Shown here: in pieces, positions 2,973-32,554 of the stretch
Layout: each line of letters begins with the position of its first letter
How positions within the stretch are numbered: position 1 is the stretch's first letter
Virus record (IMG/VR): IMGVR_UViG_3300032163_000069
Coordinates: 1 to 32,557 of that record
Source: a virus
Direction: 5' to 3' (one strand)
DNA: 32,557 nucleotides
The notes under the pieces: model-generated
What the model saw: the letters and a program-made list of their open reading frames with translations, nothing else
Told to the model about the DNA's origin: nothing
The model's database searches: none
Position numbers and translations under genes: made by a program

Positions 2973-3656
2973 ATGCCATCCATAAGCATAAGTGAGTTGG
3001 GGAAGCGTTTTCTCGCGCGCGAAGTGGCGCCGCACGGCCCGTGCGTAGTCGTGCCCGGCGACGAGTTTGACCCTGACTGGGAGGCGTTGCTGACTGATCA
3101 AGGCTACGCGTGCATCATGACGGATTTGGATGGGGCGCCGGTCACGCTTGTCGTGCTAACTAAGGCGTCCCACGGGTCTGAGGTTAAGCAGGTCTATTCT
3201 CCTGAGGCCAAGGAACCTTCGATCGAGGCAAAAAAGCGGCGGTTGTCTTGGCACGATCCTGGATTTTTCTGGTCTGAGAAGGAAGACCGGCTGCTCGTGG
3301 AGTTGTGGAACCGGGAGCCGAAATTAGGGAAAACTGAGATTGCCAAGTATTTCCCGAAGCGGACTGTGAGCGCAGTACACGGCGAATTGCAGCGTCTGCG
3401 CAACGCACAGAAAATAAAGCCCCGCGAAAGAGGGGGACAAAGGAAACATCAGCCAACTCCGGCCCCGGCCAAGTCGAAAGAATCGAGTGTTTCTACGACG
3501 CCTACTCCGACACCTACTCCCATGGAAGCGCCTGCAAGCGCGAAGCCCGCGCCAAAGACGCTGCCGATCAGCATCACAGTGACAATTAACGTTGACTGCA
3601 GCAACCCAGTTGCAATGGGAAGTCTGCAGAAATTTCTCAAGGAGATGAGAACGTGA
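2973..3656 (+). CDS. SANT/Myb-like DNA-binding protein with Thr-Pro linker
   Basis: A 227-aa protein. Residues 1-55 form an α/β N-terminal domain with no known match. Residues ~95-140 fit a SANT/Myb helix bundle (FFWSEKEDRLLVELWNRE, TEIAKYFPKRTVSAVHGELQRLR), with the typical W-S-x-x-E-D start and a recognition helix of the RTVSAV type. A basic segment follows, then a low-complexity Thr-Pro linker (TPTPTPTP at about 188-195) and a β-rich tail (LPISITVTINVD). ATG 2973 is chosen because upstream codons in this frame overlap the preceding gene. It ends with a 4-bp overlap into the ParB-like gene, so the two may work together in genome partition or replication. The exact role is unknown. Confidence 0.7.
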   Translation: MPSISISELGKRFLAREVAPHGPCVVVPGDEFDPDWEALLTDQGYACIMTDLDGAPVTLVVLTKASHGSEVKQVYSPEAKEPSIEAKKRRLSWHDPGFFWSEKEDRLLVELWNREPKLGKTEIAKYFPKRTVSAVHGELQRLRNAQKIKPRERGGQRKHQPTPAPAKSKESSVSTTPTPTPTPMEAPASAKPAPKTLPISITVTINVDCSNPVAMGSLQKFLKEMRT

Positions 3657-4903
3657 AGGATCTGAAGGATTTCACGCGTTCAATAGCCCAGGTACTAGAT
3701 TTCAAAGAGCAAGTCATCCCGGAGTGGTTCAATATCGAAGAGGCAAAAGACGGATACTTTATTGCGGTTTTACAGAAGGGAAAATGGCTTGGTGATCTGC
3801 AGTTCAAGGCCCTGTGCGCTCTGATGCGAGATCTGAAAGGCGACTACATTAGGGGAGCCAAAACATTCCGGGTTCCCGGTCCCTACGCGAAGAAGGAAGT
3901 TGCGAAACCGCAGGGGCATGGAATGCATTCCCAACCTACTTATAAAGAGCCTGGCAACGAAGTGCCAGCAGAACCATGCGGCGTTGCGCCGCCTCTCATT
4001 AGCCAGGACAAGAGCAGGCCGCCGCAGCTTGCTGTTCCCATAGGGGCCCTTTTGAGTCTGCCGTACCAGTGCCGCGAAAATCCTGAGGACCCTGACTTGG
4101 CCGAGCTTGTTGAAAGCATCAAGAACTTGGGAATGCTGCAGCCGATACTGGTCCGGCCTAAGCCTGATGGGCTTTACGAGATCGTCGCTGGTCAGAGGCG
4201 CGTTAGAGCTGCGAAGAAGGCTGGGCTCGTGGAAGTGCCAGTCAACATCAGAATTCTAAGTGATGAGGAGGCTTACGGCGCGTGTTTTGCGGAGAACATT
4301 CAACGCCGCGATCTCAGCGACATGGAGAAGGCCCGCATGCTGGACTACCTGACAAAACAGTTCGGCTATACACAGGAGCAGATGGCCCAGAAGCTAGGGA
4401 AGGAACGGGGTTGGGTTGCACGTCATCTTGCCATGCTAAACCTCGAAAATGTATCCCCGGGGATACAAACAGGAACGTTGACTGAGCGTCAGGCGCGCGA
4501 GATCCTTGCGGCTCCTCCGGAGAAGCAAGAAGAAATCTTGAACAAGATTAACGAGACCGGGCAGGTGCCCTCAGCCAGAGAGATCCACGCGGAGGTGCAC
4601 ACTGTTTCCTGTGCTTGGTGCGGGGATCCCGTGGCCGAGCCGGTGCACATCGACGGCAAGTTCTACTGTGTTGATTGTGCGGAGTTAGTTCAGGCTGAGA
4701 AGAAGCCCGGCCTCGTCCCAGAGACAAAACATGACTTCGCCGGAGACGAGACGGGGGCCGCCAAGCCTTCTGCATCTTCCGGCTCCGTGAACATTGGCGA
4801 GTTTGAGTGCCCTGAATGTCATAAGCACTTCATTGTGGAGCACCTGTCGAATGGCAAACATAAGCTTCAGCCTGTCAGAGAGGAGGCCGGCAGTTATGTG
4901 TAG
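3653..4903 (+). CDS. ParB/Spo0J-like protein with C-terminal zinc fingers
   Basis: A 416-aa protein. Residues 1-80 are an unassigned N-terminal domain. Residues ~125-215 form the ParB N-terminal domain with the GQRRVRAAKKAG box (180-191, the arginine-rich CTP/DNA-proximal motif) and ENIQRRDLSDMEKA (214-227). Residues ~235-265 form a KorB/ParB-type helix-turn-helix. Two zinc-binding units follow: CAWC (320-323) paired with CVDC (339-342), and CPEC (386-389) with His residues after it. ParB proteins spread on DNA from parS sites using CTP; some viral relatives act as nucleases or in DNA modification. GTG 3653 overlaps the previous stop by four bases. No ParA is encoded, so classical segregation is uncertain. 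An 18-bp palindrome lies inside the gene. Confidence 0.85.
   Translation: MKDLKDFTRSIAQVLDFKEQVIPEWFNIEEAKDGYFIAVLQKGKWLGDLQFKALCALMRDLKGDYIRGAKTFRVPGPYAKKEVAKPQGHGMHSQPTYKEPGNEVPAEPCGVAPPLISQDKSRPPQLAVPIGALLSLPYQCRENPEDPDLAELVESIKNLGMLQPILVRPKPDGLYEIVAGQRRVRAAKKAGLVEVPVNIRILSDEEAYGACFAENIQRRDLSDMEKARMLDYLTKQFGYTQEQMAQKLGKERGWVARHLAMLNLENVSPGIQTGTLTERQAREILAAPPEKQEEILNKINETGQVPSAREIHAEVHTVSCAWCGDPVAEPVHIDGKFYCVDCAELVQAEKKPGLVPETKHDFAGDETGAAKPSASSGSVNIGEFECPECHKHFIVEHLSNGKHKLQPVREEAGSYV
4450..4467. promoter_or_regulatory. 18-bp perfect palindrome inside parB-like gene, parS candidate
   Basis: TGTATCCCCGGGGATACA is perfectly self-complementary. It lies in the coding region for residues ~266-272, just after the HTH. 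Its TGT...ACA ends and length recall bacterial parS sites, which often lie near or inside parB. Only this copy is seen in the window. Confidence 0.4.
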
Positions 4904-5102
4904 GTGTGAGTTGTGTGGTCCCGTTTCGCGTAACGATGCCGAGTTTGAGGTTGGCGTCGGCCGTCTAGACCGGCCTATGCAGGTGTGCCTGTGGTGTCGG
5001 CAGGACCTGTCACTGGCCGGCGTGGTGAATCAGAGTGTGCCTTTGCCGAGGCGTCCGCGTAGGCCACGACCGGTCATAATCGTGCTGGAGGCGTCGACGT
5101 GA
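4896..5102 (+). CDS. Small zinc-finger protein
   Basis: A 68-aa protein with CRCELC (residues 2-6) and CLWC (about 31-34), which would form a four-Cys zinc site, followed by a basic proline-rich segment (PLPRRPRRPRP) and a hydrophobic end. ATG 4896 overlaps the ParB stop (ATGTGTAG) and is preceded by GAGGAGG. The product probably binds nucleic acid or acts as an adaptor. It ends in an ACGTGA overlap with the methyltransferase gene, so the two are likely translationally coupled. Confidence 0.65.
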   Translation: MCRCELCGPVSRNDAEFEVGVGRLDRPMQVCLWCRQDLSLAGVVNQSVPLPRRPRRPRPVIIVLEAST

Positions 5103-5719
5103 CTCAAAGAACACTTCTTGATTTGTGCTGCGGCATGGGTGGTTGGAGCATTGGGTTCCACAGAGCTGGCTTTGAATGCACAGGTGTCGATGTCCTCGAC
5201 ATCGCTTATCCATATAACCTAACCCTAGCCGACATCAGAGAATGGCATCCGAACAAGCACTATGATGTGGTCGTTGCAAGTCCACCCTGCACCGAATTCT
5301 CCACTCTCCTGCGACTTGCTGTGGCCAGAGGGCAACGTGGACCTGCAGACCCGAAAAAAGGTTTGGAGTTGATAAAAGCTTGCATTCGCATAATTGAAGA
5401 AGTCAAGCCAAGGTTCTGGATTCTGGAGAACGTTGCAGGTTCTGAGCAATACATAACGCCATTGCTGGGGCCTCCGAAGATCATTCACAGGCCTTGGTAT
5501 CTTTGGGGTGTTTTTCCTTATTTCATGTTGTCTCAGTCGAATATACCGAAAAAAACTGATGGTGAAGTCGGCAGTGTCAGGAAAAGCTGTAGACATGATA
5601 AGTTGAATTCCGTGTTTGCGTTTAACCCGTTGCGCTCGTTTTTCAGGGCTAAGATTCCATTGCCACTTTCTGTACCTTTGGCGAAAGCATGTAAGGAGGT
5701 CCTGAGTGAGGAAGACTAA
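5099..5719 (+). CDS. DNA (cytosine-5-)-methyltransferase
   Basis: A 206-aa enzyme predicted to transfer a methyl group from SAM to C5 of cytosine in DNA. Motif I is DLCCGMGGWSIGF (8-20), motif IV is SPPCTEFS with the catalytic Cys64, and motif VI is ENV (110-112). It is shorter than typical 300-400 aa enzymes and the target-recognition region is compact. The C-terminal RAKIPLPLSVPLAKACKEVL stands in for motifs IX/X, as in other small viral enzymes. GTG 5099 overlaps the upstream stop. There is no cognate restriction gene, so it is an orphan methylase, probably protecting viral DNA from host restriction or marking it for regulation. Confidence 0.88.
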   Translation: MTQRTLLDLCCGMGGWSIGFHRAGFECTGVDVLDIAYPYNLTLADIREWHPNKHYDVVVASPPCTEFSTLLRLAVARGQRGPADPKKGLELIKACIRIIEEVKPRFWILENVAGSEQYITPLLGPPKIIHRPWYLWGVFPYFMLSQSNIPKKTDGEVGSVRKSCRHDKLNSVFAFNPLRSFFRAKIPLPLSVPLAKACKEVLSEED

Positions 5720-6165: not shown

Positions 6166-7691
6166 GTATTGAAGAGCTCCAGAAAGTCGTTGTCGAAGCT
6201 GACTTGAAGATCTCCGAGGCTATTGAGAAGCTGGAGAAGAGAAGGACCGATCTTGCGGCCCGTTTTCAGGAGGCCCTTTCGAAAGATCAGGGCAGCCAGG
6301 TTGATTTTGAGTTGCTTCAGCCTTTCCTGGAAGAGCCGTATGTTATGATTCCCAAGCATGGCCAGGAATGGTGGGTTATCGTTCCGAAGTGGCTTAAGCT
6401 TCAAGTCGGTTATCTGGACCACAGCACTCAGAGCTATAATGTGTTCATTGTTAACAAGTACGTGAAGTGGCTCAGCGAGATTCCCCCAGAACTCGGAGAG
6501 AGACTAAAGTTTCCTGAGGCCCTGCCGCTGAAGGTATATGATGGCATGCTCTTGACGGGGGAGCAGCTGCAGGACCGCGCCTGGCAGAAGTACAGCCAGT
6601 TCCTAAGCCGCAGAGAGGGCAAGGACCGCATCCGCGTCAAACAGGGTCTCGAGTTCCGCCTTATCGCTCAGCTGATCGAAGACGGTTCGTTACCGTTCAT
6701 TCCTAAGCCCATTTCGCCTGAGGACCTGCGGTCTTGGAACGACGCTGGCAGCGGCAAATACGCGGAGATCTGCAGGAGCAAGAACACTGTTGAGATTCAG
6801 GACCGGGCTTGGCAGGAGTTCACGCAACGCGGCGCCGTGGGCGTGTACTGGGCGTTCGGTACTGGAAAAAGCCTTTTCGGCCACAGGGTCATCGGCTCCG
6901 TTAAGGGGCCGCACCTGGTCATCGTGTCCACGTTGACTTTGAAGGAGCAGTGGCTTGAGCGACTGCAAATCTTCAATCCGTCGGCAAAACAGGACGTCAC
7001 TGTCGAGACTTACCACGCTTACGAGCGGGTTGCGCGGAAGCCCTGGAACGTAGTCTTGTTCGACGAATGCCAGCACCTGCCTGCTCCGACATTCATCAAG
7101 CTAAGCACTATCCAGACCAAGTATCGCATTGGGTTCAGCGGCAGCCCGTTCCGCGAGGACGGCCGGGAAAACTACATCTTCGCGTTAACCGGGTTCCCGA
7201 TCGGCATGAGCTGGAGCGACCTTCTCAAGCTGCGAGTCATTAGCGTGCCGCAGTTCCGCGTGTACGTGCTACCCGATCGCAGGGCCAAGGACCGCAAGCT
7301 CGACGAACTCATGCGTCTTCCTCTCAAAACGATAATTTTCTGTGACAGCCTCGACTATGGGGAGGAGATCAGCAAGCGCCTCGAGATCCCGTTCGTCTAC
7401 GGCGGCACGGGGGAGCGTTTGGACATTATTCGAAGTAGTCAGGCCTGTGTGGTCAGCCGGGTTGGGGACGAAGGGATAAGCGATTTGAAGCTTGAACGCA
7501 TAGTCGAAGTCGCGTTCTTGTTTGGCAGCAGGATGCAGGAGAGTCAGCGTTTCGGCCGCCTCATGCACAGCGAAAAGAAGACCCAGCATGTTATTCTCAT
7601 GACTAGGCAGGAATACGAGGCATATGACAAGCGGCTGTTAGCCATCACGCAGCGAGGCTTCAAACTTGAACTGATAGAGGAGGCGTCGTAA
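6162..7691 (+). CDS. SF2 DNA helicase, XPB/Rad25-like
   Basis: A 509-aa helicase expected to unwind DNA with ATP. The N-terminal ~200 residues contain a charged coiled-coil region and an unassigned domain. The ATPase core shows motif I AFGTGKS (231-237), a motif Ia-like IVSTLTLKEQW, motif II DECQ (301-304), motif III SGSPF (326-330) and motif VI QRFGR (462-466). The second RecA domain is compact. TTG 6162 is chosen because AAGGAGG precedes it and it overlaps the zinc-ribbon stop as TTGA; an ATG at 6093 would overlap that gene by 73 bp. It is the only obvious replication enzyme here: no DNA polymerase or primase is seen, so host replication proteins are probably recruited. Confidence 0.85.
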   Translation: MSIEELQKVVVEADLKISEAIEKLEKRRTDLAARFQEALSKDQGSQVDFELLQPFLEEPYVMIPKHGQEWWVIVPKWLKLQVGYLDHSTQSYNVFIVNKYVKWLSEIPPELGERLKFPEALPLKVYDGMLLTGEQLQDRAWQKYSQFLSRREGKDRIRVKQGLEFRLIAQLIEDGSLPFIPKPISPEDLRSWNDAGSGKYAEICRSKNTVEIQDRAWQEFTQRGAVGVYWAFGTGKSLFGHRVIGSVKGPHLVIVSTLTLKEQWLERLQIFNPSAKQDVTVETYHAYERVARKPWNVVLFDECQHLPAPTFIKLSTIQTKYRIGFSGSPFREDGRENYIFALTGFPIGMSWSDLLKLRVISVPQFRVYVLPDRRAKDRKLDELMRLPLKTIIFCDSLDYGEEISKRLEIPFVYGGTGERLDIIRSSQACVVSRVGDEGISDLKLERIVEVAFLFGSRMQESQRFGRLMHSEKKTQHVILMTRQEYEAYDKRLLAITQRGFKLELIEEAS

Positions 7692-7692
7692 G

Positions 7693-7857
7693 GTGAGTTT
7701 GGACCGGTTTTTGGGCCTACAGAAAAGGAAGCTAAGTGTCTGGCACTGCTACAAGTGCGACGTCGACTTCTATCGGCGTGAGGACATGCGCATTCACATG
7801 CGGAACAAGCATGGAGTGCGGTTTGAAGAGGCTCCCAGCCTGGAGGGGGCAACTTGA
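7693..7857 (+). CDS. Classical C2H2 zinc-finger protein
   Basis: A 54-aa protein from GTG 7693, with GAGGAGG upstream. Residues 19-40 fit C-x2-C-x12-H-x4-H (CYKC...HMRNKH), a textbook C2H2 finger with the hydrophobic F/Y and L/M core positions. Such single-finger proteins are frequent in archaeal viruses and probably bind DNA or RNA. It is the last gene of the long early operon and is followed by ~68 bp of non-coding DNA. Confidence 0.75.
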   Translation: MSLDRFLGLQKRKLSVWHCYKCDVDFYRREDMRIHMRNKHGVRFEEAPSLEGAT

Positions 7858-7872
7858 AAAATGAGTTCTCTC

Positions 7873-7880
7873 TAAAAATA
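7873..7880 (+). promoter_or_regulatory. TATA-like promoter element
   Basis: TAAAAATA at 7873-7880, with a second AT-rich stretch CTATATC at 7883-7889, lies 45-50 bases before the ATG at 7926 in the only gap between the early operon and the next genes. Initiation is expected near 7903-7911. A GGAGG at 7912-7916 serves the downstream start. Confidence 0.4.
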
Positions 7881-7925
7881 GACTATATCTAGCTACCTAC
7901 ATTCTGAGGTTGGAGGATGACTAGG

Positions 7926-8345
7926 ATGGGAAGAAAGAGTTTCCAAGAACACAAGGTCATGCTGTTTCTCGACAAAGAACTATACGTTGCGTTCATACGC
8001 CTTCAGGCGGACAAAACCATCGGACGAAGCTACGCGGGACTCTTGCCCTTCGTCGAGGGCCTCTACCACATGGGCTACATCAACACGGACACTTACAATG
8101 CGCATGTGACCCGGTACAGCGACAAACTCGTGGGCAAGAAGCAGATGACGCTTGCCGAAACTCAGGAGATGGAGAAAAACATCCAGTTAGCCAGGTTTTT
8201 CCAGGCTGTTGCGGACCAGTGGGAAGGGCTGTCGCCTGAACAGCGGAAGAAACATGTCGCACGGGCCTTGGCTCATAGGCAAAAGTTTCCGCAGGCCGAA
8301 TTAATCATTCAACTGGCAAACAGAGACGCGGAAAGGAGACGCTAG
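7926..8345 (+). CDS. Hypothetical protein, possible RHH-like N-terminus
   Basis: A 139-aa basic protein. Its first 50 residues (VMLFLDKELYVAFIRLQADK...YAGLLPFVEGLYHMG) have a strand-helix-helix layout loosely like ribbon-helix-helix proteins. The C-terminal 80 residues are helical and rich in Lys, Arg and Gln. ATG 7926 is chosen because GGAGG at 7912-7916 has normal spacing to it, while it touches the ATG at 7917. No family is recognised with confidence. It opens a cluster of DNA-binding proteins. Confidence 0.6.
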   Translation: MGRKSFQEHKVMLFLDKELYVAFIRLQADKTIGRSYAGLLPFVEGLYHMGYINTDTYNAHVTRYSDKLVGKKQMTLAETQEMEKNIQLARFFQAVADQWEGLSPEQRKKHVARALAHRQKFPQAELIIQLANRDAERRR

Positions 8346-8346
8346 A

Positions 8347-8490
8347 GTGCGCACAGAAGCTACATTTACTCGGTATACCGAGTATGGGAAAAGTCCATGC
8401 TTTACACAGAGGCCCGTTTTGAGCGCTGCTGACCCAGATCATTTTGGCTCTATCTTGCGAGTTGTCAACGTGGAGGTTTTCCATGGCTGA
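8347..8490 (+). CDS. Possible 47-aa protein overlapping a palindrome
   Basis: GTG 8347 has AAGGAGA about eight bases upstream, and the frame stays open for 47 codons to TGA 8490, overlapping the next start by 8 bp as is usual here. The product is hydrophilic at its start and ends in short β-prone stretches (SILRVVNVEVF). The 18-bp palindrome at 8367-8384 lies within it, so the region could instead be a regulatory leader. No family is recognised. Confidence 0.4.
   Translation: MRTEATFTRYTEYGKSPCFTQRPVLSAADPDHFGSILRVVNVEVFHG
8367..8384. promoter_or_regulatory. 18-bp perfect palindrome, putative operator
   Basis: TACTCGGTATACCGAGTA is fully self-complementary. It lies about 100 bp before the winged-helix gene at 8483 and just after the gene ending at 8345. 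It could be the binding site of the adjacent winged-helix regulators or an RNA hairpin between the two coding regions. Confidence 0.5.
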
Positions 8491-9028
8491 ACCGATTGAA
8501 CAGGAATCAAGCGAAGTCCGTGTGCATTCATCGAAAAAGGGGCGTTCTAGAGAGGAGAACGTAGGTCGGCTGAAGTATAATCAGTATCTGCTCAAGCGCG
8601 TGTTGACGGAGATCAGCGAAGTCCGAGAGATGCAGCGCATTATCATGAGCGGTTTGAAGGGTGCTGGCTACTTTCACTTTGATATTCCTTTGATTCAGAA
8701 GTTCGCGTGTGAGGATCAGCTTGATTTGGAGATTCTGCAGATGGTCCATGAGTCAGGCCGTGCAGGTATTTATCCGAAGGACGTCGCTGCTGCCTTGCCA
8801 GAGTACAAGGATCAGAAGGGCCAGCCGATCAAGCATTATCATGTGTCTCGCAGGATTCAGCGGATGAATAAGCGTCTAGCCCATGAGACGGGCGAGGTGC
8901 TGTTTGAGAAGCGCGGTTGGCAATGGGCTTTAACGGTGTTTGCGCTTGAATCATATGGAGACGTTGAGAAGCGTTCGCTGGAGGAGTTCACCGTTGAAAC
9001 ACGAGAATCAGACGCTGCAGAAAGGTAG
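8483..9028 (+). CDS. Winged-helix DNA-binding protein
   Basis: A 181-aa protein. The N-terminal ~35 residues are charged and probably disordered. Residues ~45-70 are helical. Residues ~78-150 fit a winged helix: LDLEILQMVHESGRAGIYPKDVAAAL, then HYHVSRRIQRMNKRL as recognition helix and GEVLFEKRGWQWALT as wing. ATG 8483 is chosen for the GGAGG about eight bases before it; the frame is open further upstream without a better site. A 35-bp overlap joins it to the next gene. It is likely a transcription regulator, perhaps of the palindrome ~100 bp upstream. Confidence 0.7.
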   Translation: MAEPIEQESSEVRVHSSKKGRSREENVGRLKYNQYLLKRVLTEISEVREMQRIIMSGLKGAGYFHFDIPLIQKFACEDQLDLEILQMVHESGRAGIYPKDVAAALPEYKDQKGQPIKHYHVSRRIQRMNKRLAHETGEVLFEKRGWQWALTVFALESYGDVEKRSLEEFTVETRESDAAER

Positions 9029-9458
9029 GACTTTTCGCCTTACTCTATTCGCTAAAATGCTCAACTATCCACGTGTAACTTCTAGGGAATTCAAACGTGT
9101 GGCCAGTTTTCTTGAGAGGGAAGGTATCGTCGTAGTTCAGCAGGGCGGTTTTCTGGGCCACAGTATGGCGCATCCCAAGATAGTTACAGTGCTGAAGCCT
9201 TTGGAGTTAGATGCTTTTAAGCAAGTTGTCATGTCCAATACGAACTTCACTGTTGGAGAATTTACGGTCCATAAGACAACGAAAAAGAGAAAATGTGGCG
9301 AGTGTCGACGAACCATTGATTATGGTGAACGGTATGGAGTTAAACTACGGTTTGGAAGGAAGAGGAAAGGTAGTCACCGCAAGATCATAATCGCTCAAGA
9401 GGTACTTTGCTTTCCATGCTTACTTGAAAAGACCGGGGTCGAAGGATTTGAGAGCTGA
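8994..9458 (+). CDS. Winged-helix plus zinc-ribbon protein
   Basis: A 154-aa protein from TTG 8994 (GGAGG upstream), overlapping the preceding gene by 35 bp. Residues ~10-70 resemble a winged helix (TLFAKMLNYPRVTSREFKRVASFLEREGIVVVQQGG). Residues ~100-150 hold a four-Cys site, CGEC and CFPC, around a basic β-hairpin (RYGVKLRFGRKRKGSH). This combination suggests a sequence-specific DNA-binding regulator. It pairs with the 8483 gene and could form a heteromeric or sequential switch; targets are unknown. Confidence 0.6.
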   Translation: MKHENQTLQKGRTFRLTLFAKMLNYPRVTSREFKRVASFLEREGIVVVQQGGFLGHSMAHPKIVTVLKPLELDAFKQVVMSNTNFTVGEFTVHKTTKKRKCGECRRTIDYGERYGVKLRFGRKRKGSHRKIIIAQEVLCFPCLLEKTGVEGFES

Positions 9459-10470: not shown

Positions 10471-10525
10471 TTCAGCTTCTAATTCTTAAACTAACTGCAT
10501 AAATAGGTTATTAGCGCATTTAGGC

Positions 10526-10547
10526 TAACAACGTATTTTTGTTTTGA
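10526..10547 (+). promoter_or_regulatory. Shared 22-nt element upstream of portal (copy 1)
   Basis: TAACAACGTATTTTTG followed by TTTTGA recurs with two mismatches at 16371-16392. It starts 49 bases before the portal ATG at 10575, where no Shine-Dalgarno is visible. It may be a virus-specific promoter element for structural genes. Confidence 0.45.
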
Positions 10548-15266: not shown

Positions 15267-16351
15267 GCGTTCTCGTTGGGATCCCAAGTCTCAACGAGAA
15301 TGACCGTTTTCTCGGTTATCGAGAGAACGTTCTGGCACACATTGCAGTCGCCTTGGCCGGGGTCGAACATGAAGTTTTTATTTCTCCGCCACAAGCGAAA
15401 CCGGGCATTGAGGGCATTACCAACGCACAAAACACGCTTATCGATCGGTGCGTGGAGGGTGACTTTTCGCATTTATGGATTGTTCAGGCTGACGTGGAAG
15501 TGTCGGCTGAAGCTTTTGATAAGCTCTCTGGGATTGACGTCGACGTGGCTCAGGGTGTTGTTTCGCGTCACGACGATCATAATGCGCTAATTTGTGGGTT
15601 CTTGGATGCGGATAAGAAGGTGTGGTATTTGCCGCGCAATGCGGTTCAGAACATGGTTCTCTCAGGTTGGGTTTTCGCCGGGATGAGCTGCACACTCCTC
15701 AAAAGGCGGGTCCTAGAGGCTGGAATCCGCTTTCGATATGAACGCGGAGTTGGTGAGGATATTCTCTTCATGTTCGACGTGCAGAAAGCGGGATTCGTTG
15801 CTAAGGTTGATGGCCGCGTGGTTTGCGGTCACCTGCCAGAGTGGCCCTTAGGCTCGGCATTAGGGGTCGCGACCCCTAATTATGGTGTTCTTGATGTCGG
15901 TTGTGGTCACAGGTCCAAGGGCGACGTGAACGTTGATTTGTATCCTGAACCTACTGCTCACCGGTGTGCGGATCAGCGGGTCAACGATGATGTGCGACTT
16001 AAAGTCGCAGAGATTCCGAATTTCGTTAAGGCAGATGCGTGCCACTTGCCTTTCCGGGATGGCGCGTTTAGAAGCAGTTACAGTTGGCATGTGATTGAGC
16101 ATTTGGCTGATCCTGAGGCTTTCCTGCGGGAGCTGCTGCGGGTTTCTGCCGGGGAAGTTGAGGTCCGGTGTCCGAATGGGGATCATCCTTCTGCTTTTGG
16201 CGATTCGAAGCCTTTGCACTTGCAGCGTTTGACGGCGAAGTGGTTTGAGGTGCGGTTGAAGGCTTTTCCCGGATGGAGCTGGGACGTGAGGCCTGAGTTT
16301 AGCCAGGGTGAGCCTTGGGAGATCGTGGTTCGCGGCGTAAGAAACGGTTAG
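15263..16351 (+). CDS. Glycosyltransferase-methyltransferase fusion
   Basis: A 362-aa two-domain enzyme. Residues 1-~195 look like a GT-A glycosyltransferase: SVLVGIPSLNENDRFLGYRE, then QADVEV (75-80) in the metal/nucleotide position and GED (164-166) near the end. Residues ~205-362 are a Rossmann methyltransferase: LDVGCG (210-215), ADACHLPF (257-264) and HVIEHL (276-281). The two are joined at a stretch encoded by a 22-bp palindrome. The clear protein pattern runs upstream to residue 1, yet no ATG, GTG or TTG exists there: the codon at 15263 is GTA (GTAA overlap with the previous stop, AAGGA upstream). The first ordinary start is TTG 15353, inside the domain. It probably modifies capsid, tail or host glycans, being set in the head module. 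Confidence 0.72.
   Translation, partial: VSVLVGIPSLNENDRFLGYRENVLAHIAVALAGVEHEVFISPPQAKPGIEGITNAQNTLIDRCVEGDFSHLWIVQADVEVSAEAFDKLSGIDVDVAQGVVSRHDDHNALICGFLDADKKVWYLPRNAVQNMVLSGWVFAGMSCTLLKRRVLEAGIRFRYERGVGEDILFMFDVQKAGFVAKVDGRVVCGHLPEWPLGSALGVATPNYGVLDVGCGHRSKGDVNVDLYPEPTAHRCADQRVNDDVRLKVAEIPNFVKADACHLPFRDGAFRSSYSWHVIEHLADPEAFLRELLRVSAGEVEVRCPNGDHPSAFGDSKPLHLQRLTAKWFEVRLKAFPGWSWDVRPEFSQGEPWEIVVRGVRNG
15859..15880. repeat. 22-bp perfect palindrome at domain junction
   Basis: ATTAGGGGTCG is followed directly by its exact reverse complement (CGACCCCTAAT). It encodes residues 199-206, in the linker between the glycosyltransferase and methyltransferase domains. It could be a hairpin, a protein-binding site or a recombination scar of the fusion. 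Confidence 0.6.
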
Positions 16352-16370
16352 GCTACTATCGCGTTTGCGA

Positions 16371-16392
16371 TAACAACGTATTTCTGCTTTGA
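16371..16392 (+). promoter_or_regulatory. Shared 22-nt element (copy 2)
   Basis: TAACAACGTATTTCTG followed by CTTTGA, two mismatches from the copy at 10526-10547. It starts 42 bases before ATG 16413 of the connector gene, in a 61-bp gap. It is probably a second structural promoter separating the head block from the connector-tail block. Confidence 0.45.
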
Positions 16393-27828: not shown

Positions 27829-28266
27829 GTGAGGGGAAAGCCTTGGACGCTGGAAGAGGAGAAAGAACTCAGGAACATGATCGCGCAGGGAACTTCCATG
27901 GAAGTTATAGCTGAAAAGATGCGGAGAAGCCCTGACGCGGTCGTGAAGAAGTGTGAGCGGCTTGGGTTAGAAGTAGTCGTCGGCAGTCCTAGGGTTCCGA
28001 CAACTACTTCTAGTTTGCACCTGCCAAAGGAGTTGCCGAGCGTTGAGGAGGCGTTGAAAATGCTTGCCGGAGCTCTCAAGACGGCTTGTCAGCCCGGGCT
28101 CGACAAGGTTGAGGTGCAGCGGCTACAGGTAATTGCGACTCTTGCGCGGACCTACAAGGAGGTCCTTGCGGACTATCTCGATTATCGTGGTGTGGAAGCT
28201 CAGCTTTTGGATTTGAGGCAGAAATATGAGCAGTTCGCGAAGAAACCCAAGAACACTGCGTCCTAA
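27829..28266 (+). CDS. terS: Terminase small subunit
   Basis: A 145-aa protein. The N-terminal HTH/SANT-like domain (KPWTLEEEKELRNMIAQGTSMEVIAEKMRRSPDAVVKKCERLG) should bind viral DNA; a loop with a 45-nt hairpin follows; the C-terminal ~80 residues are helical and oligomeric (VEEALKMLAGALKTA, KVEVQRLQVIATLARTYKEVLADYLDYRG). It lies directly before terL, the normal terS position. GTG 27829 follows GGAGGAG. It overlaps terL by 41 bp. It is expected to recognise the packaging site and hand DNA to the large subunit. Confidence 0.75.
   Translation: MRGKPWTLEEEKELRNMIAQGTSMEVIAEKMRRSPDAVVKKCERLGLEVVVGSPRVPTTTSSLHLPKELPSVEEALKMLAGALKTACQPGLDKVEVQRLQVIATLARTYKEVLADYLDYRGVEAQLLDLRQKYEQFAKKPKNTAS
27968..28012. 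repeat. Long hairpin within terS
   Basis: Arms 27968-27983 and 27997-28012 are 16 bases each with one mismatch (TAGAAGTAGT shared at the base, then GTCGG), around a 13-nt loop. It lies where the DNA-binding and oligomerisation domains of TerS meet. It may be a pac-like packaging signal or an mRNA structure. Confidence 0.55.
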
Positions 28267-29674
28267 TAGATGGATGCGGGAGCGAGTTCAACTCCAACGG
28301 GACGTTAAAGCTATTGAGGATGCTCGAGGTCGTCAGGTTGAGGAGTTGAAGTCTGATCCTATCGAGTTTTTTCGTCAGGTTCTAGGGTTTGAACCCACGA
28401 CGTATCAACGTGAGCTCATCGAGTTGTTCTTGAAAAATCAGTTTCTTGCCGCTCGATGGTGCAGGCAGTCCGGTAAGAGCTGGACCGCAAGCGCACTGTT
28501 GCTTAATTATGCTTTAACAAATCCCGACAGTCACATTGCCCTAGTAGGCCCGAGCTGGCGCCAAACCAAATTGAACATACGTAGGATAAGTTATTTCCTT
28601 CGCAAGATTCCCGCTGACAAGTACCTGAAGCCCGGCAGGACCGTTCTCAGGTTCAGCAACGGCAGCGTGATCGAGGCCTTTCCAAATAATCCGGAAACTA
28701 TACGTGGGCCAACGTTAAGCCTAATTTGGTTCGATGAAGCCAACTTCACTCCCTGTGATCAGGACCTCTACGACGCTATTCTATTCACGCTGGGCACGAC
28801 TGATGGCAAACTGATAGTCACGAGCACACCCTGGAATACGGATTCGCTGTTTTGGAAAATGTGTAACCATAAGGATTTCAGCGATTTTGCGCGGCATCAC
28901 GTGACGTGGCAGCAGGCGCAGGAGCCTAACGGTCCACTGAAGAAGGGCATTCTGGACAAGATTCGGAAGCAGTTTGGCGAGGATCCTGCTCGGTGGCGTC
29001 GTGAAATGGAGGCTGAGTGGGCTGAGGACGAGAACGTGTGGCTGCCGCAGAGCCTGATCGTTGCGTGTGTCGGCACTGAGAAAAATTGTGGAGAGGACCT
29101 GCGGCCTTGGAATCCCGAGCAGGGGCAACGCGGCGAGCTTTTCGCAGGCTTGGATCTCGCGCAGGTGCGGGACTACTGTGTTTTCAGCGTACTCGAGCGA
29201 TTGAACAATCAACTTTTTCTTCGTCACCTAAAGATTTTCAGTCAACCAACCAGATACGCTAACGTGTTGGGTTACATGAAGATGCTTCAGGATCGTTGGG
29301 AGGGCTTCGCCAAAATTCGCGTCGACTTCACGAAGGAAGGCCCTAGCATCATAAGCGATATGGAGGATGCGGGTATCAAAAACGCTGAGGGCGTGAACTT
29401 TAGTGTGCCGCGAAAGAGCGAGATGGCCAACTTGACGAAACAGAGAATGGGCGATCAAAAGCTGTTCTATCCATTGCTGACGTGGGACGCGCCATACAAA
29501 AGCGACATTTGCACTGAACTTAACGTTGAGCGGTATGAGTTGCGTCGGGACGGTGCAATAATGCTGTCGCATCCGACTGGTACGCATGATGACGTGTTTT
29601 GGAGCGTGGCGCTCGCCGTGTATGCTACCGTGGAGATGAAGACGCTGGACCTGGAGGCTATGCGATTTGGCTGA
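28226..29674 (+). CDS. terL: Terminase large subunit
   Basis: A 482-aa packaging ATPase and nuclease. ATPase: CRQSGKS (79-85, Walker A), LSLIWFDEA (Walker B, D170/E171) and VTSTPW (198-203, motif III). Nuclease: acidic residues at GLD (Asp310), RVDF (Asp367) and THDD (Asp455/456) fit the RNase-H fold. ATG 28226 overlaps terS and has a weak GAGG; ATG 28274 is the alternative. It packages DNA into the prohead through the portal at 10575. Its place after the tail genes, away from the portal, is unusual in a linear map but normal if the genome is circular. Confidence 0.92.
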   Translation: MSSSRRNPRTLRPNRWMRERVQLQRDVKAIEDARGRQVEELKSDPIEFFRQVLGFEPTTYQRELIELFLKNQFLAARWCRQSGKSWTASALLLNYALTNPDSHIALVGPSWRQTKLNIRRISYFLRKIPADKYLKPGRTVLRFSNGSVIEAFPNNPETIRGPTLSLIWFDEANFTPCDQDLYDAILFTLGTTDGKLIVTSTPWNTDSLFWKMCNHKDFSDFARHHVTWQQAQEPNGPLKKGILDKIRKQFGEDPARWRREMEAEWAEDENVWLPQSLIVACVGTEKNCGEDLRPWNPEQGQRGELFAGLDLAQVRDYCVFSVLERLNNQLFLRHLKIFSQPTRYANVLGYMKMLQDRWEGFAKIRVDFTKEGPSIISDMEDAGIKNAEGVNFSVPRKSEMANLTKQRMGDQKLFYPLLTWDAPYKSDICTELNVERYELRRDGAIMLSHPTGTHDDVFWSVALAVYATVEMKTLDLEAMRFG

Positions 29675-29780: not shown

Positions 29781-31247
29781 TTGAGGAGGCGTCGGGAGTT
29801 TTTCCGGATTCGGCAGATGCGAAGGGTCTATGATCGGGGCCAGAACCGTTTCACGTTCAACATCTCTTACGAGACGTCCACGAAGATAACGCCGAGAAGC
29901 ATCGCGGTTGCTGAGGCTTTCGGTTTGGGCATCGATGCACAACGTCGATTCGTGGTTCTCGATAACGCGGAGCTGAAGATGGGGCCTACGGACATCGTTT
30001 ACATCACCGGCGATAGTGGCAGCGGCAAAAGCGTGTTGTTGCGTGCTTTGTTGCAGGATTTGGGCGAGGAAGCTGTCAACATGGCCGACGTCCACGTGGA
30101 CCCTGAGAAGCCACTGATCGAGACCATAGGGGCAACGGTTCAAGAGAGCCTGGAACTGCTCAGTAGGGTGGGCCTTAATGATGCTTTTCTTTTCCTACGT
30201 ACATACGATCAGCTCTCAGATGGCCAGAAATACCGTTATCGCATTGCCAAAATGGTCGAAGGCGGAAAACAATGGTGGTTTATGGACGAGTTCTGCGCGA
30301 CGCTTGACCGTGATACTGCGAAGATCGTGGCGTTTAACCTGCAGAAGCTGGCGCGGGCCTCGGGGAAGGCTGCCGTCGTGGCCACTACGCACTCGGACCT
30401 GTTTGAGGACCTGAAACCCAGCGTGCATGTTCACAAGCGCTTCGGCAAGGAGATCACGGTTTCGTATTATCCGAATGAACTCGCTGTAGAGTGCAGTTTG
30501 GCCAAGGAAATGCGTATCGAGCCTGGCGTCCTTGATGATTGGAGAAAGCTCAGCGGCTTTCACTACCGGAGCCACAACGCCGGCGCCAGTCGAGAGATCT
30601 ATTGTCTCAAACGTGGTTATGAACTCTGTGGGGTCGTCGTCTATTGCTATCCTCCTGTCAATTGCGCCGGTAGAAGATTGGTGTTGCCACTCATGGACGT
30701 CAAGACCCTGAACAAGAGATTAAGCATCATTAGTCGTGTTGTGGTTCACCCGAAATATCGGACTGTAGGGCTCGGTGCGAAGCTGATTCGTGAGACCTTG
30801 CCGAAAGCCGGTACGCCTTACGTTGAGATGGTCGCGGTAATGGCCAAGTATAATCCCTTTGCAGAGAAGGCAGGAATGCGGAAAGTCATTGAAAAAGGGC
30901 CTTCTGAAGAAGCGGTCAAAATATCCAAAGTTCTAAAGGATGTTGGTTTCAATCTGCAGCTGCTGGGCAGCGAGAAACACGTGTATAGTGTACTATACGA
31001 TTTGAGTCCTGAGCAACTGGCCAGGGTGAAAGAGGGCCTTGCTAAGAATAATCATCCGCGGCTTTCTAAGGAAATTACGCCGGATCGGAGCCGAAGGCCT
31101 TACGGTTCAAAAGCAGAGTACGTTAAAGCCGTTACTGATGCGGATTTAGGAAAATTGGCCAAGGTGATTAGGGTTGTTGGGATGTTGTTGCAGACGAAGG
31201 CTTACCTGTTTTGGCAACGTCCTCAAGCTGAAAATCGTAAACCATGA
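29781..31247 (+). CDS. ABC-ATPase fused to GNAT acetyltransferase (COG2401-like)
   Basis: A 488-aa two-domain protein. Residues ~35-230 form an ABC-type ATPase without membrane segments: GDSGSGKS (77-84, Walker A), LSDGQ (145-149, signature), WWFMDE (165-170, Walker B with Glu170) and H-loop His204. Residues ~250-400 form a GNAT acetyltransferase: FHYRS (260-264) at the start and RTVGLG (327-332), a perfect R-x-x-G-x-G acetyl-CoA motif in VHPKYRTVGLGAKLI, followed by NPFAEKAGM. The C-terminal ~85 residues are basic. This domain order corresponds to COG2401, ABC-type ATPases fused to a predicted acetyltransferase, known mainly from archaea. TTG 29781 is used; ATG 29817 is the alternative. The 3' end overlaps the convergent ASCH gene by 80 bp. 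The substrate is unknown; nucleic acid is plausible by analogy with the ATPase-GNAT enzyme TmcA and with the GNAT-fold DNA modifier Mom. Confidence 0.78.
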   Translation: MRRRREFFRIRQMRRVYDRGQNRFTFNISYETSTKITPRSIAVAEAFGLGIDAQRRFVVLDNAELKMGPTDIVYITGDSGSGKSVLLRALLQDLGEEAVNMADVHVDPEKPLIETIGATVQESLELLSRVGLNDAFLFLRTYDQLSDGQKYRYRIAKMVEGGKQWWFMDEFCATLDRDTAKIVAFNLQKLARASGKAAVVATTHSDLFEDLKPSVHVHKRFGKEITVSYYPNELAVECSLAKEMRIEPGVLDDWRKLSGFHYRSHNAGASREIYCLKRGYELCGVVVYCYPPVNCAGRRLVLPLMDVKTLNKRLSIISRVVVHPKYRTVGLGAKLIRETLPKAGTPYVEMVAVMAKYNPFAEKAGMRKVIEKGPSEEAVKISKVLKDVGFNLQLLGSEKHVYSVLYDLSPEQLARVKEGLAKNNHPRLSKEITPDRSRRPYGSKAEYVKAVTDADLGKLAKVIRVVGMLLQTKAYLFWQRPQAENRKP

Positions 31248-31527
31248 CTTTTCGATTCGGGTCCCAAGAGCCGTATATTTGGACCCAATCCTTATGGAAT
31301 TCCTCTACGGTCGCGAATCCTTCATTCTTTGCATCTTTCGCTGTTATGTCGCCTAATCGTTCTTGAGATGCTCGCAGTATTCTTATGTGGGCTACCGATC
31401 TGTCGAATCTTCGGCAGCGTACTCCGTAGGTCCGGCCGACCTTAAGAAGATGCTTATGTATCCTGCGGGTCTGCGTCTTCCTGCCCTGCAACACTTTCTC
31501 AAGCAATTCTTTCCTGAAAATAGGCAT
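31168..31527 (-). CDS. ASCH-domain protein, YqfB-like
   Basis: A 119-aa protein with an ASCH (PUA-like) fold: FRKELLEKVLQGRKTQTRRIHK, GRTYGVRCRRF, LGDITAKDAKNEGFATVEEFHKDW, VMVYDFQLE. Lys17, Thr20 and Glu69 align by eye with Lys21, Thr24 and Glu74 of E. coli YqfB, an N4-acetylcytidine amidohydrolase; the same positions are conserved in many ASCH proteins, so activity is not proved. AGAGGA precedes ATG 31527. It is the last gene of a leftward operon of three and converges on the ABC-GNAT gene, with an 80-bp overlap in which its Ser/Thr-rich tail lies. Confidence 0.72.
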   Translation of the reverse strand: MPIFRKELLEKVLQGRKTQTRRIHKHLLKVGRTYGVRCRRFDRSVAHIRILRASQERLGDITAKDAKNEGFATVEEFHKDWVQIYGSWDPNRKVMVYDFQLEDVAKTGKPSSATTSQQP

Positions 31528-31768
31528 ACGCGCTTTCCTCTTCGACGGTTAGGAGGCCCCTCTTTTCCCGGTAAAGATTGGCCAAAACGACGAGTTTTGC
31601 CCGGTGGAAGTATCCTGCTTCGCGCAGCTCTCTTTTTGTCGCGGTTATGCCTTTAAAATCAGAATCCATGGTCCGCGCCTGGTTCTCTTGGAAGAGTTGC
31701 TCAGCTTTTTCCCAGATCATGGCCCTAACTCGTGGCCAGAATTTGCCTTGTTGCTGCATTGTTATCAC
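31499..31768 (-). CDS. Small helical hypothetical protein
   Basis: An 89-aa protein, almost all helical (FWPRVRAMIWEKAEQLFQE, ATKRELREAGYFHRAKLVVLANLYREKRG, TVEEESAYAYFQERI), with a basic Trp-containing start. GTG 31768 overlaps the upstream gene's TGA (GTGA); an ATG three codons later is possible. It overlaps the ASCH gene by 29 bp. Family unknown; it may be an adaptor for the neighbours in this operon. Confidence 0.5.
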   Translation of the reverse strand: MITMQQQGKFWPRVRAMIWEKAEQLFQENQARTMDSDFKGITATKRELREAGYFHRAKLVVLANLYREKRGLLTVEEESAYAYFQERIA

Positions 31769-32310
31769 GTAATTATTGCCTTGTTGTCTTTGCCGTTGCA
31801 GGGTATGCCTAGTTTGCGTCTGCAGATGTGGCCGTAGCCCGTGAGTATGCTGACTTTGGCGGAGATCGGGAGGCCGCAGCGTTTGCAGCGTGCGGTCCAC
31901 GCCTTGTCCAGCTCCTGAGCTATGTACTTTCGCGCGTGCGCGTGGTTGATGCTGGCCAAATGTGCTAGGTGATAGTGTGCCAGAATCTGTATTGCGACGT
32001 GGTACTCTGCTTGCGTGTAGCGGTTTTGCCAGCCGACAATGTACTCGGCCAGGTTGACTAGGTGTTCCTTTGTGACATAGGCAAGCGAGTTTTCGTCGTC
32101 GCATACGCGCTGGATCAGGGTCGAGAGATGCGTTTTTGCGGCGTTATCTTCGCACGTCGGGCAGACGTCCAGTTCATAGATGTTGCCGGGCGTGCGGTAG
32201 GGGCACTTGTCCAGTCTCACACAAATTACTGGTGTAGGCGATTTCTCGTCGCCGCGCAAAGCCACTTTCTGCTCGAAAGCTGGCGGGGTTTCTGATTTAG
32301 CGTTTTGCAT
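31765..32310 (-). CDS. Zinc-binding hypothetical protein
   Basis: A 181-aa protein. CPYR...CPTC (36-53) and CKRCG...GHICRRKLG (142-166) are two Cys/His clusters around a helical middle with many Tyr, His and Ala (VNLAEYIVGWQNRYTQAEYHVAIQILAHYHLAHLA). The second cluster resembles the zinc ribbons of other small viral proteins here. ATG 32310 is preceded by AGAGGT. It is the first gene of the leftward operon and starts next to the inverted repeat at 32313-32418. Confidence 0.55.
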   Translation of the reverse strand: MQNAKSETPPAFEQKVALRGDEKSPTPVICVRLDKCPYRTPGNIYELDVCPTCEDNAAKTHLSTLIQRVCDDENSLAYVTKEHLVNLAEYIVGWQNRYTQAEYHVAIQILAHYHLAHLASINHAHARKYIAQELDKAWTARCKRCGLPISAKVSILTGYGHICRRKLGIPCNGKDNKAIIT

Positions 32311-32421: not shown

Positions 32422-32554
32422 AAAAGACGATCCGGCCAGACCACGGCCCCTTCTTAAATCAACGAGTGTAAGACCCTTAAGCTTTCCGGGGGTTAGAAAC
32501 AACACATCCCATACTGCAACAATAAGCTATAGCGACTCTAGGGTATCCGAGGCA
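32422..32554. repeat. Right copy of terminal direct repeat
   Basis: Matches 1-133 with the single difference at 32548 (C, against T at 127) and diverges at 32555. The window ends three bases later. See the left copy. The end therefore joins to the start and restores a circular map, or the two copies flank a linear element. Confidence 0.9.

Follow-up and report, generated by a model that had tools for sequence, protein, structure and literature searches.

The window analysed here, a stretch of viral DNA of 32,557 nt, encodes an ABC ATPase-GNAT fusion (ABC-GNAT) directly behind its terminase large subunit (TerL). Our main reading, to which we give a probability of about 0.5, is that this fusion is a late, terminase-linked, predicted DNA acyltransferase directed against restriction, that the ASCH gene facing it is an accessory candidate for YqfB-type chemistry, and that the two genes are the ends of two modules that meet. 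The predicted DNA-acylating family, for which we found no demonstration in the literature, lies almost always beside the terminase in Bathyarchaeia viruses, and several phages unrelated to them also have it close to their terminase genes. This linkage is a concrete reason to seek a DNA modification that would be new, and it indicates the stage at which the modification would be made. The sequence-only reading of the window had proposed that ABC-GNAT writes and ASCH removes an acyl mark; taken one by one, an acyl-writing ABC-GNAT and a YqfB-like ASCH are reasonable ideas, but a terminase-linked ABC-GNAT that is probably a late DNA acyltransferase of Bathyarchaeia viruses is a better finding than their pairing.

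Viral genome and probable host

The two ends of the record carry a direct repeat of 133 nt (1-133 and 32422-32554, 99% identical), and therefore the record is probably a complete genome, circular or terminally redundant. With its ends joined or redundant, TerL, ABC-GNAT and the genes opposing it adjoin the integrase across the ends. Because the relatives of ABC-GNAT came almost wholly from Bathyarchaeota assemblies, the virus probably infects an archaeon of the class Bathyarchaeia. This class is very abundant and largely uncultured, and two papers on Bathyarchaeia viruses and archaeal proviruses mention neither acetyltransferases nor ASCH. A short C5 cytosine methylase of 206 aa is encoded at 5099-5719, where the Pfam match is confined to the domain's N-terminal part. 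A 44-nt repeat (10504-10547 and 16349-16392, 80% identity) is located just 5' of a gene start in both places and is possibly a promoter or leader element.

ABC-GNAT combines an intact-looking ABC ATPase with a GNAT domain

The ABC-GNAT gene (29781-31247, plus strand) starts with TTG and encodes 488 aa. The ABC ATPase domain (about aa 20-231; 29838-30473) was assigned by a structure match and by phrog_293 (E 1e-32), and the GNAT domain (about aa 232-375; 30474-30905) by weak Pfam GNAT matches and phrog_886 (E 2e-18). They are followed by a helical C-terminal extension (about aa 376-480; 30906-31220), whose predicted helices have pLDDT values mostly of 82-94. In Pfam searches the whole protein matched ABC_tran (E 1e-9) and, weakly, GNAT families; the GNAT part alone again gave weak GNAT matches (E 0.006-0.01). 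The AlphaFold model is fair (pLDDT 81, pTM 0.71). Its ABC part (aa 20-230) matched an ABC ATPase structure (Z 17.8, rmsd 2.9 over 187 residues), and the match list of a fold search with the whole protein was filled by ABC domains.

Motif conservation was scored in 24 viral relatives with 62-80% identity. All motifs named in the sequence-only reading were found, and those of the ABC domain were kept in the relatives: Walker A GDSGSGKS (aa 77-84; 30009-30032) is invariant or nearly so, and the signature LSDGQ (aa 145-149; 30213-30227) and Walker B Asp169-Glu170 (30285-30290) are invariant. The H-loop (H204) is also present, and the ATPase half is intact as judged from its sequence. In the GNAT domain, a His-Tyr dipeptide (HY, aa 261-262; 30561-30566) is invariant, as are R327 and G332 of the acyl-CoA motif RTVGLG (aa 327-332; 30759-30776), in which G330 is replaced by Ser in several relatives. 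The ABC-GNAT and ASCH genes both recur in many contigs, with dN/dS of about 0.04-0.26 where measurable, which indicates purifying selection; the two are real genes and not chance frames. In one relative (L140, record G040) a single TGA interrupts the ABC-GNAT open frame, for which an error, a pseudogene or recoding are possible explanations.

We compared the fusion with two known GNAT proteins. It shares the GNAT superfamily and HY with Mom of phage Mu, which has no ABC domain. The GNAT part gave no match to Pfam Mom (PF25680), only generic GNAT matches up to E 10, whereas Mu Mom as a control matched at 2e-75. Profile comparison by hhalign yielded 85% for Mom, 37-82% for RimI and 6-70% for TmcA, with Mom and RimI not clearly separated. 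Because the Pfam model was unmatched and hhalign did not discriminate, we set membership of the Mom family aside. HY is also found in the 7 phage homologs and the 8 Mom proteins examined, and in phage Appa a ParB-like gene adjoins a Mom relative, parallel to the ParB gene beside ABC-GNAT in phage Jace; both pointers to Mom likeness are suggestive only. TmcA, the tRNA N4-acetylcytidine synthetase put forward earlier as an analogue, is likewise a single protein that combines an ATPase with a GNAT. Its ATPase, however, is helicase-type and that of the window protein is an ABC domain, so this analogy was abandoned; the similarity of the GNAT profiles is weak to moderate.

ABC-GNAT is linked to the terminase

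The TerL gene (28226-29674, plus strand; Pfam Terminase_6N, E 6e-17; phrog_2, E 4e-40) lies directly upstream of ABC-GNAT. In a TerL-seeded survey that took in the 71 loci with 1 kb or more of downstream sequence, ABC-GNAT was found beside TerL in 69; a script placed it within 2.5 kb in 67, and the remaining two were a locus with ABC-GNAT at 3.3 kb (L151) and one recognised by match inspection (L214). Seeding with ABC-GNAT in genome assemblies, nearly all of them from Bathyarchaeota, gave TerL at no more than 2.5 kb in 43/48 informative loci, a figure re-counted by hand since stop-to-stop ORFs overlap. TerL was upstream of ABC-GNAT in 38 of these 43 loci and downstream in 5. The correlation between TerL and ABC-GNAT distances was near 0 once close relatives were removed, to which saturation could contribute. 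The distances are thus not congruent, and the position is kept while the gene combination changes.

In one locus (L142, record G047, 7437-9334) the slot after TerL is occupied by a D12 adenine methylase (E 4e-24) and a free GNAT, followed by ASCH. The N-terminus of this free GNAT is similar to that of ABC-GNAT. Further replacements of this type and relatives of this GNAT were sought, and none was found.

The closest phage families of ABC-GNAT are phrog_293, phrog_11143 and phrog_886, and tblastn found matches in 76 phage records, including SSU5, Jace, LE4 and pT24. These phage ABC-coupled GNATs have homologous ABC and GNAT parts and in several cases lie near the terminase. The gene order is ParB, ABC-GNAT, TerL in LE4; ParB, ABC-GNAT, TerS, TerL in Pmp13; and two ParB genes, ABC, GNAT, TerL in RHph_N2_6. 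Record G033 (L260, 3500-8500) also has a phage-type order (ParB, ABC, GNAT, TerS, TerL); its GNAT reading frame looks truncated or frameshifted. A ParB neighbour is common but not universal in phages, pT24 and P12024S having none. The window protein differs from the phage systems in being a single 488-aa fusion placed directly after TerL with no adjoining ParB; in SSU5-type phages ABC and GNAT are split. The ParB gene of the window (3653-4903, with a ParB HTH domain) is far from ABC-GNAT, and a ParB-like gene next to ABC-GNAT was absent there and from most of the bathyarchaeal relatives searched. In Rhizobium phage RHph_N2_6 (L255, 2133-2435) a Tad2-like Thoeris anti-defence gene is located between ABC and GNAT (PF11195, E 1e-23), a hint that these genes form a counter-defence cassette.

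It is to the terminase, and in phages to ParB, that ABC-GNAT has its strong and ancient link. Together, the terminase linkage, the phage clusters of ParB and terminase, and the methylase swap in L142 point to DNA as the setting and to packaging as the time. A review (PMC7824862) cites Iyer et al. 2013 for the prediction that GNATs coupled to ABC ATPases acylate a DNA base, and names pT24 as an example. The earlier statement that COG2401 proteins have no settled function holds for experiments but overlooks this published prediction. The same prediction agrees with the proposal that the virus places an acyl modification on its own DNA; the coupling of that proposal to ASCH is not supported.

The ASCH protein resembles YqfB

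The ASCH-domain protein (31168-31527, minus strand) has 119 aa, a YqfB-like fold and a Pfam ASCH score of 28.1 bits (cut-off 21.2). Its K17-x-x-T20-x-R22 motif (31462-31479) corresponds to Lys21, Thr24 and Arg26 of the E. coli N4-acetylcytidine amidohydrolase YqfB, and Glu69 (31321-31323) to Glu74. K and T are kept in 31/31 viral ASCH sequences spanning the motif, and Glu in 31/32 sequences. The matches of K17, T20 and E69 proposed earlier were thus confirmed, and R22 is a further one, aligned with Arg26 in an ungapped reading, with a gap put beside it by MAFFT. Asp27 and His70 of YqfB, fully conserved in YqfB-like enzymes (PMC6972931), are replaced by Ile23 and Asp65; the position of Tyr89 is variable in the family and Tyr in the window.

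The model of the protein (pLDDT 84) has YqfB as its nearest solved fold (9kyf/9kyh; Z 13.9, 2.0 Å over 98 residues, 26% identity), and the runner-up among ASCH structures reached Z 12.1. The structure check of the active site suggested with the sequence-only reading thus came out in favour of YqfB, with K/T/R/E kept, apart from the two replaced residues. Sequence searches of the PDB with the single sequence and with a profile gave no matches, and the NCBIfam YqfB model NF003443 scored 13.7 bits, far under its cut-off of 93. The likeness to YqfB is in the fold and the catalytic Lys/Thr/Arg/Glu; the window protein differs in being viral, in lacking Asp27 and His70 and in falling below the NCBIfam cut-off. 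Strong purifying selection indicates that the gene is functional. Whether or not it is a partner of ABC-GNAT, it is a directly assayable viral candidate for YqfB-type chemistry. In the frame upstream of ASCH (31499-32104, minus strand), only the C-terminal part is conserved in relatives, and therefore translation probably begins well downstream of the ATG that was listed.

An accessory ASCH gene, separate in position and history

ABC-GNAT and ASCH converge, as described earlier, and both ORFs overlap at their stop ends by 80 bp (31168-31247), a segment that encodes the ASCH tail. Because the tail (residues 106-119) overlaps the end of ABC-GNAT and has pLDDT below 50, its partial conservation may reflect the ABC-GNAT frame. 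Among relatives the overlap varies: in some it spans about 50-90 bp, and others lack it.

The results of the neighbourhood survey did not support a writer/eraser pairing: ASCH is patchy, present in 10 of the 37 TerL loci that leave 2.5 kb or more of room, compared with 69/71 TerL loci for ABC-GNAT. ABC-GNAT was present in 9 of those 10 loci, which says little since it is in nearly every locus; in the first ASCH scan, full ABC-GNAT was found in 17/21 contigs. In a 27-kb record that may be incomplete (G034), ASCH and a terminase are present, and neither ABC-GNAT nor a GNAT was detected. The gene that ASCH faces in G033 is long, structural-looking and not an ABC gene, and the overlap there is 35 bp; in three loci (L033, L055 and L081) it is on the other strand, kilobases from ABC-GNAT. 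The closest match found to the ASCH of the window (68% identity) comes from L142, a locus that lacks ABC-GNAT. ABC-GNAT and ASCH distances correlated with r 0.44 over 20 loci, dropping to 0.13-0.31 when close relatives and a single divergent locus were left out, and some co-inheritance is expected from adjacency alone. ABC-GNAT is so common in the group that its independence from ASCH is poorly testable there. The seeds portal, MCP and integrase had relatives at 0, 1 and 5 loci, too few for a 2x2 test; with the window excluded, integrase- and MCP-seeded records comprised 1 with both genes, 1 with ASCH only and 4 with neither. We regard ASCH as an accessory gene whose position and history are its own.

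Proposed mechanism and alternatives

Most likely, ABC-GNAT would take acyl groups from acyl-CoA and attach them to bases in the viral DNA, either ahead of packaging or in its course, and the acylated genome would be protected from host restriction. A dimerising ABC module may engage the DNA, with ATP used to present bases to the GNAT; the protein would be like Mom in purpose, not a demonstrated member of its family. ASCH is most likely a YqfB-type amidohydrolase that acts on cytosine compounds with an N-acyl group, or else a relative limited to binding such compounds. The packaging module, which runs rightward, would end with ABC-GNAT and the opposing one, on the integrase side, with ASCH, and the two genes would face each other for this reason; two modules whose ends meet are the simplest reading of the facing genes. 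The terminase linkage of ABC-GNAT and its swap for a methylase and GNAT in L142 fit a late-expressed DNA acyltransferase. Against DNA as the substrate, GNATs also acetylate proteins and small molecules, and the methylase replacement is a single case.

Acetylation of a protein by ABC-GNAT (terminase, capsid protein or a host factor), for packaging timing or host takeover, would also account for the tight terminase linkage across lineages, since GNATs often modify proteins and phage GNATs acetylating RNA polymerase are known (PMC7824862). We consider it unlikely, because the ParB partnership in phages, the resemblance to Mom in motif and neighbourhood, and the swap for a DNA methylase and GNAT point to DNA, and because a correlation near 0 between TerL and ABC-GNAT distances is unexpected for a dedicated enzyme-substrate pair. 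Still less credence goes to a reversible writer/eraser pair, in which ABC-GNAT writes an acyl mark such as N4-acylcytosine and ASCH removes it. The YqfB-like fold with K/T/R/E, the hydrolysis of N4-acetyl-2'-deoxycytidine by YqfB-type enzymes (PMC9599836), the 17/21 contigs and the r of 0.44 would agree with such a pair, but the paper on YqfB analogues reports no nucleic-acid binding (PMC9599836), and ASCH is found in only 10/37 TerL loci, without detectable ABC-GNAT or GNAT in G034, without ABC-GNAT at its nearest relative in L142, and facing a non-ABC gene with a similar overlap in G033. The terminase link is far stronger, and we therefore rejected the pairing as the main reading. Its specific form, with ABC-GNAT writing N4-acylcytosine on viral DNA at packaging and ASCH removing or recycling it after infection or in lysogeny, is very improbable.

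For the ASCH protein itself, a tentative alternative to the YqfB-type candidate is that it binds or reads RNA or modified bases without catalysis, with the catalytic-looking residues inherited from the superfamily. ASCH/PUA domains are often described as readers of nucleic acids (PMC12839542), and the replaced Asp27 and His70 and the low NCBIfam score agree with this. On the other side, essentially every sequence that spans these positions has Thr, Lys, Arg and Glu, YqfB ranks first among the ASCH structures with Z 13.9 against at most 12.1 for the others, and the His70Ala mutation of YqfB lowers its activity only about tenfold (PMC6972931).
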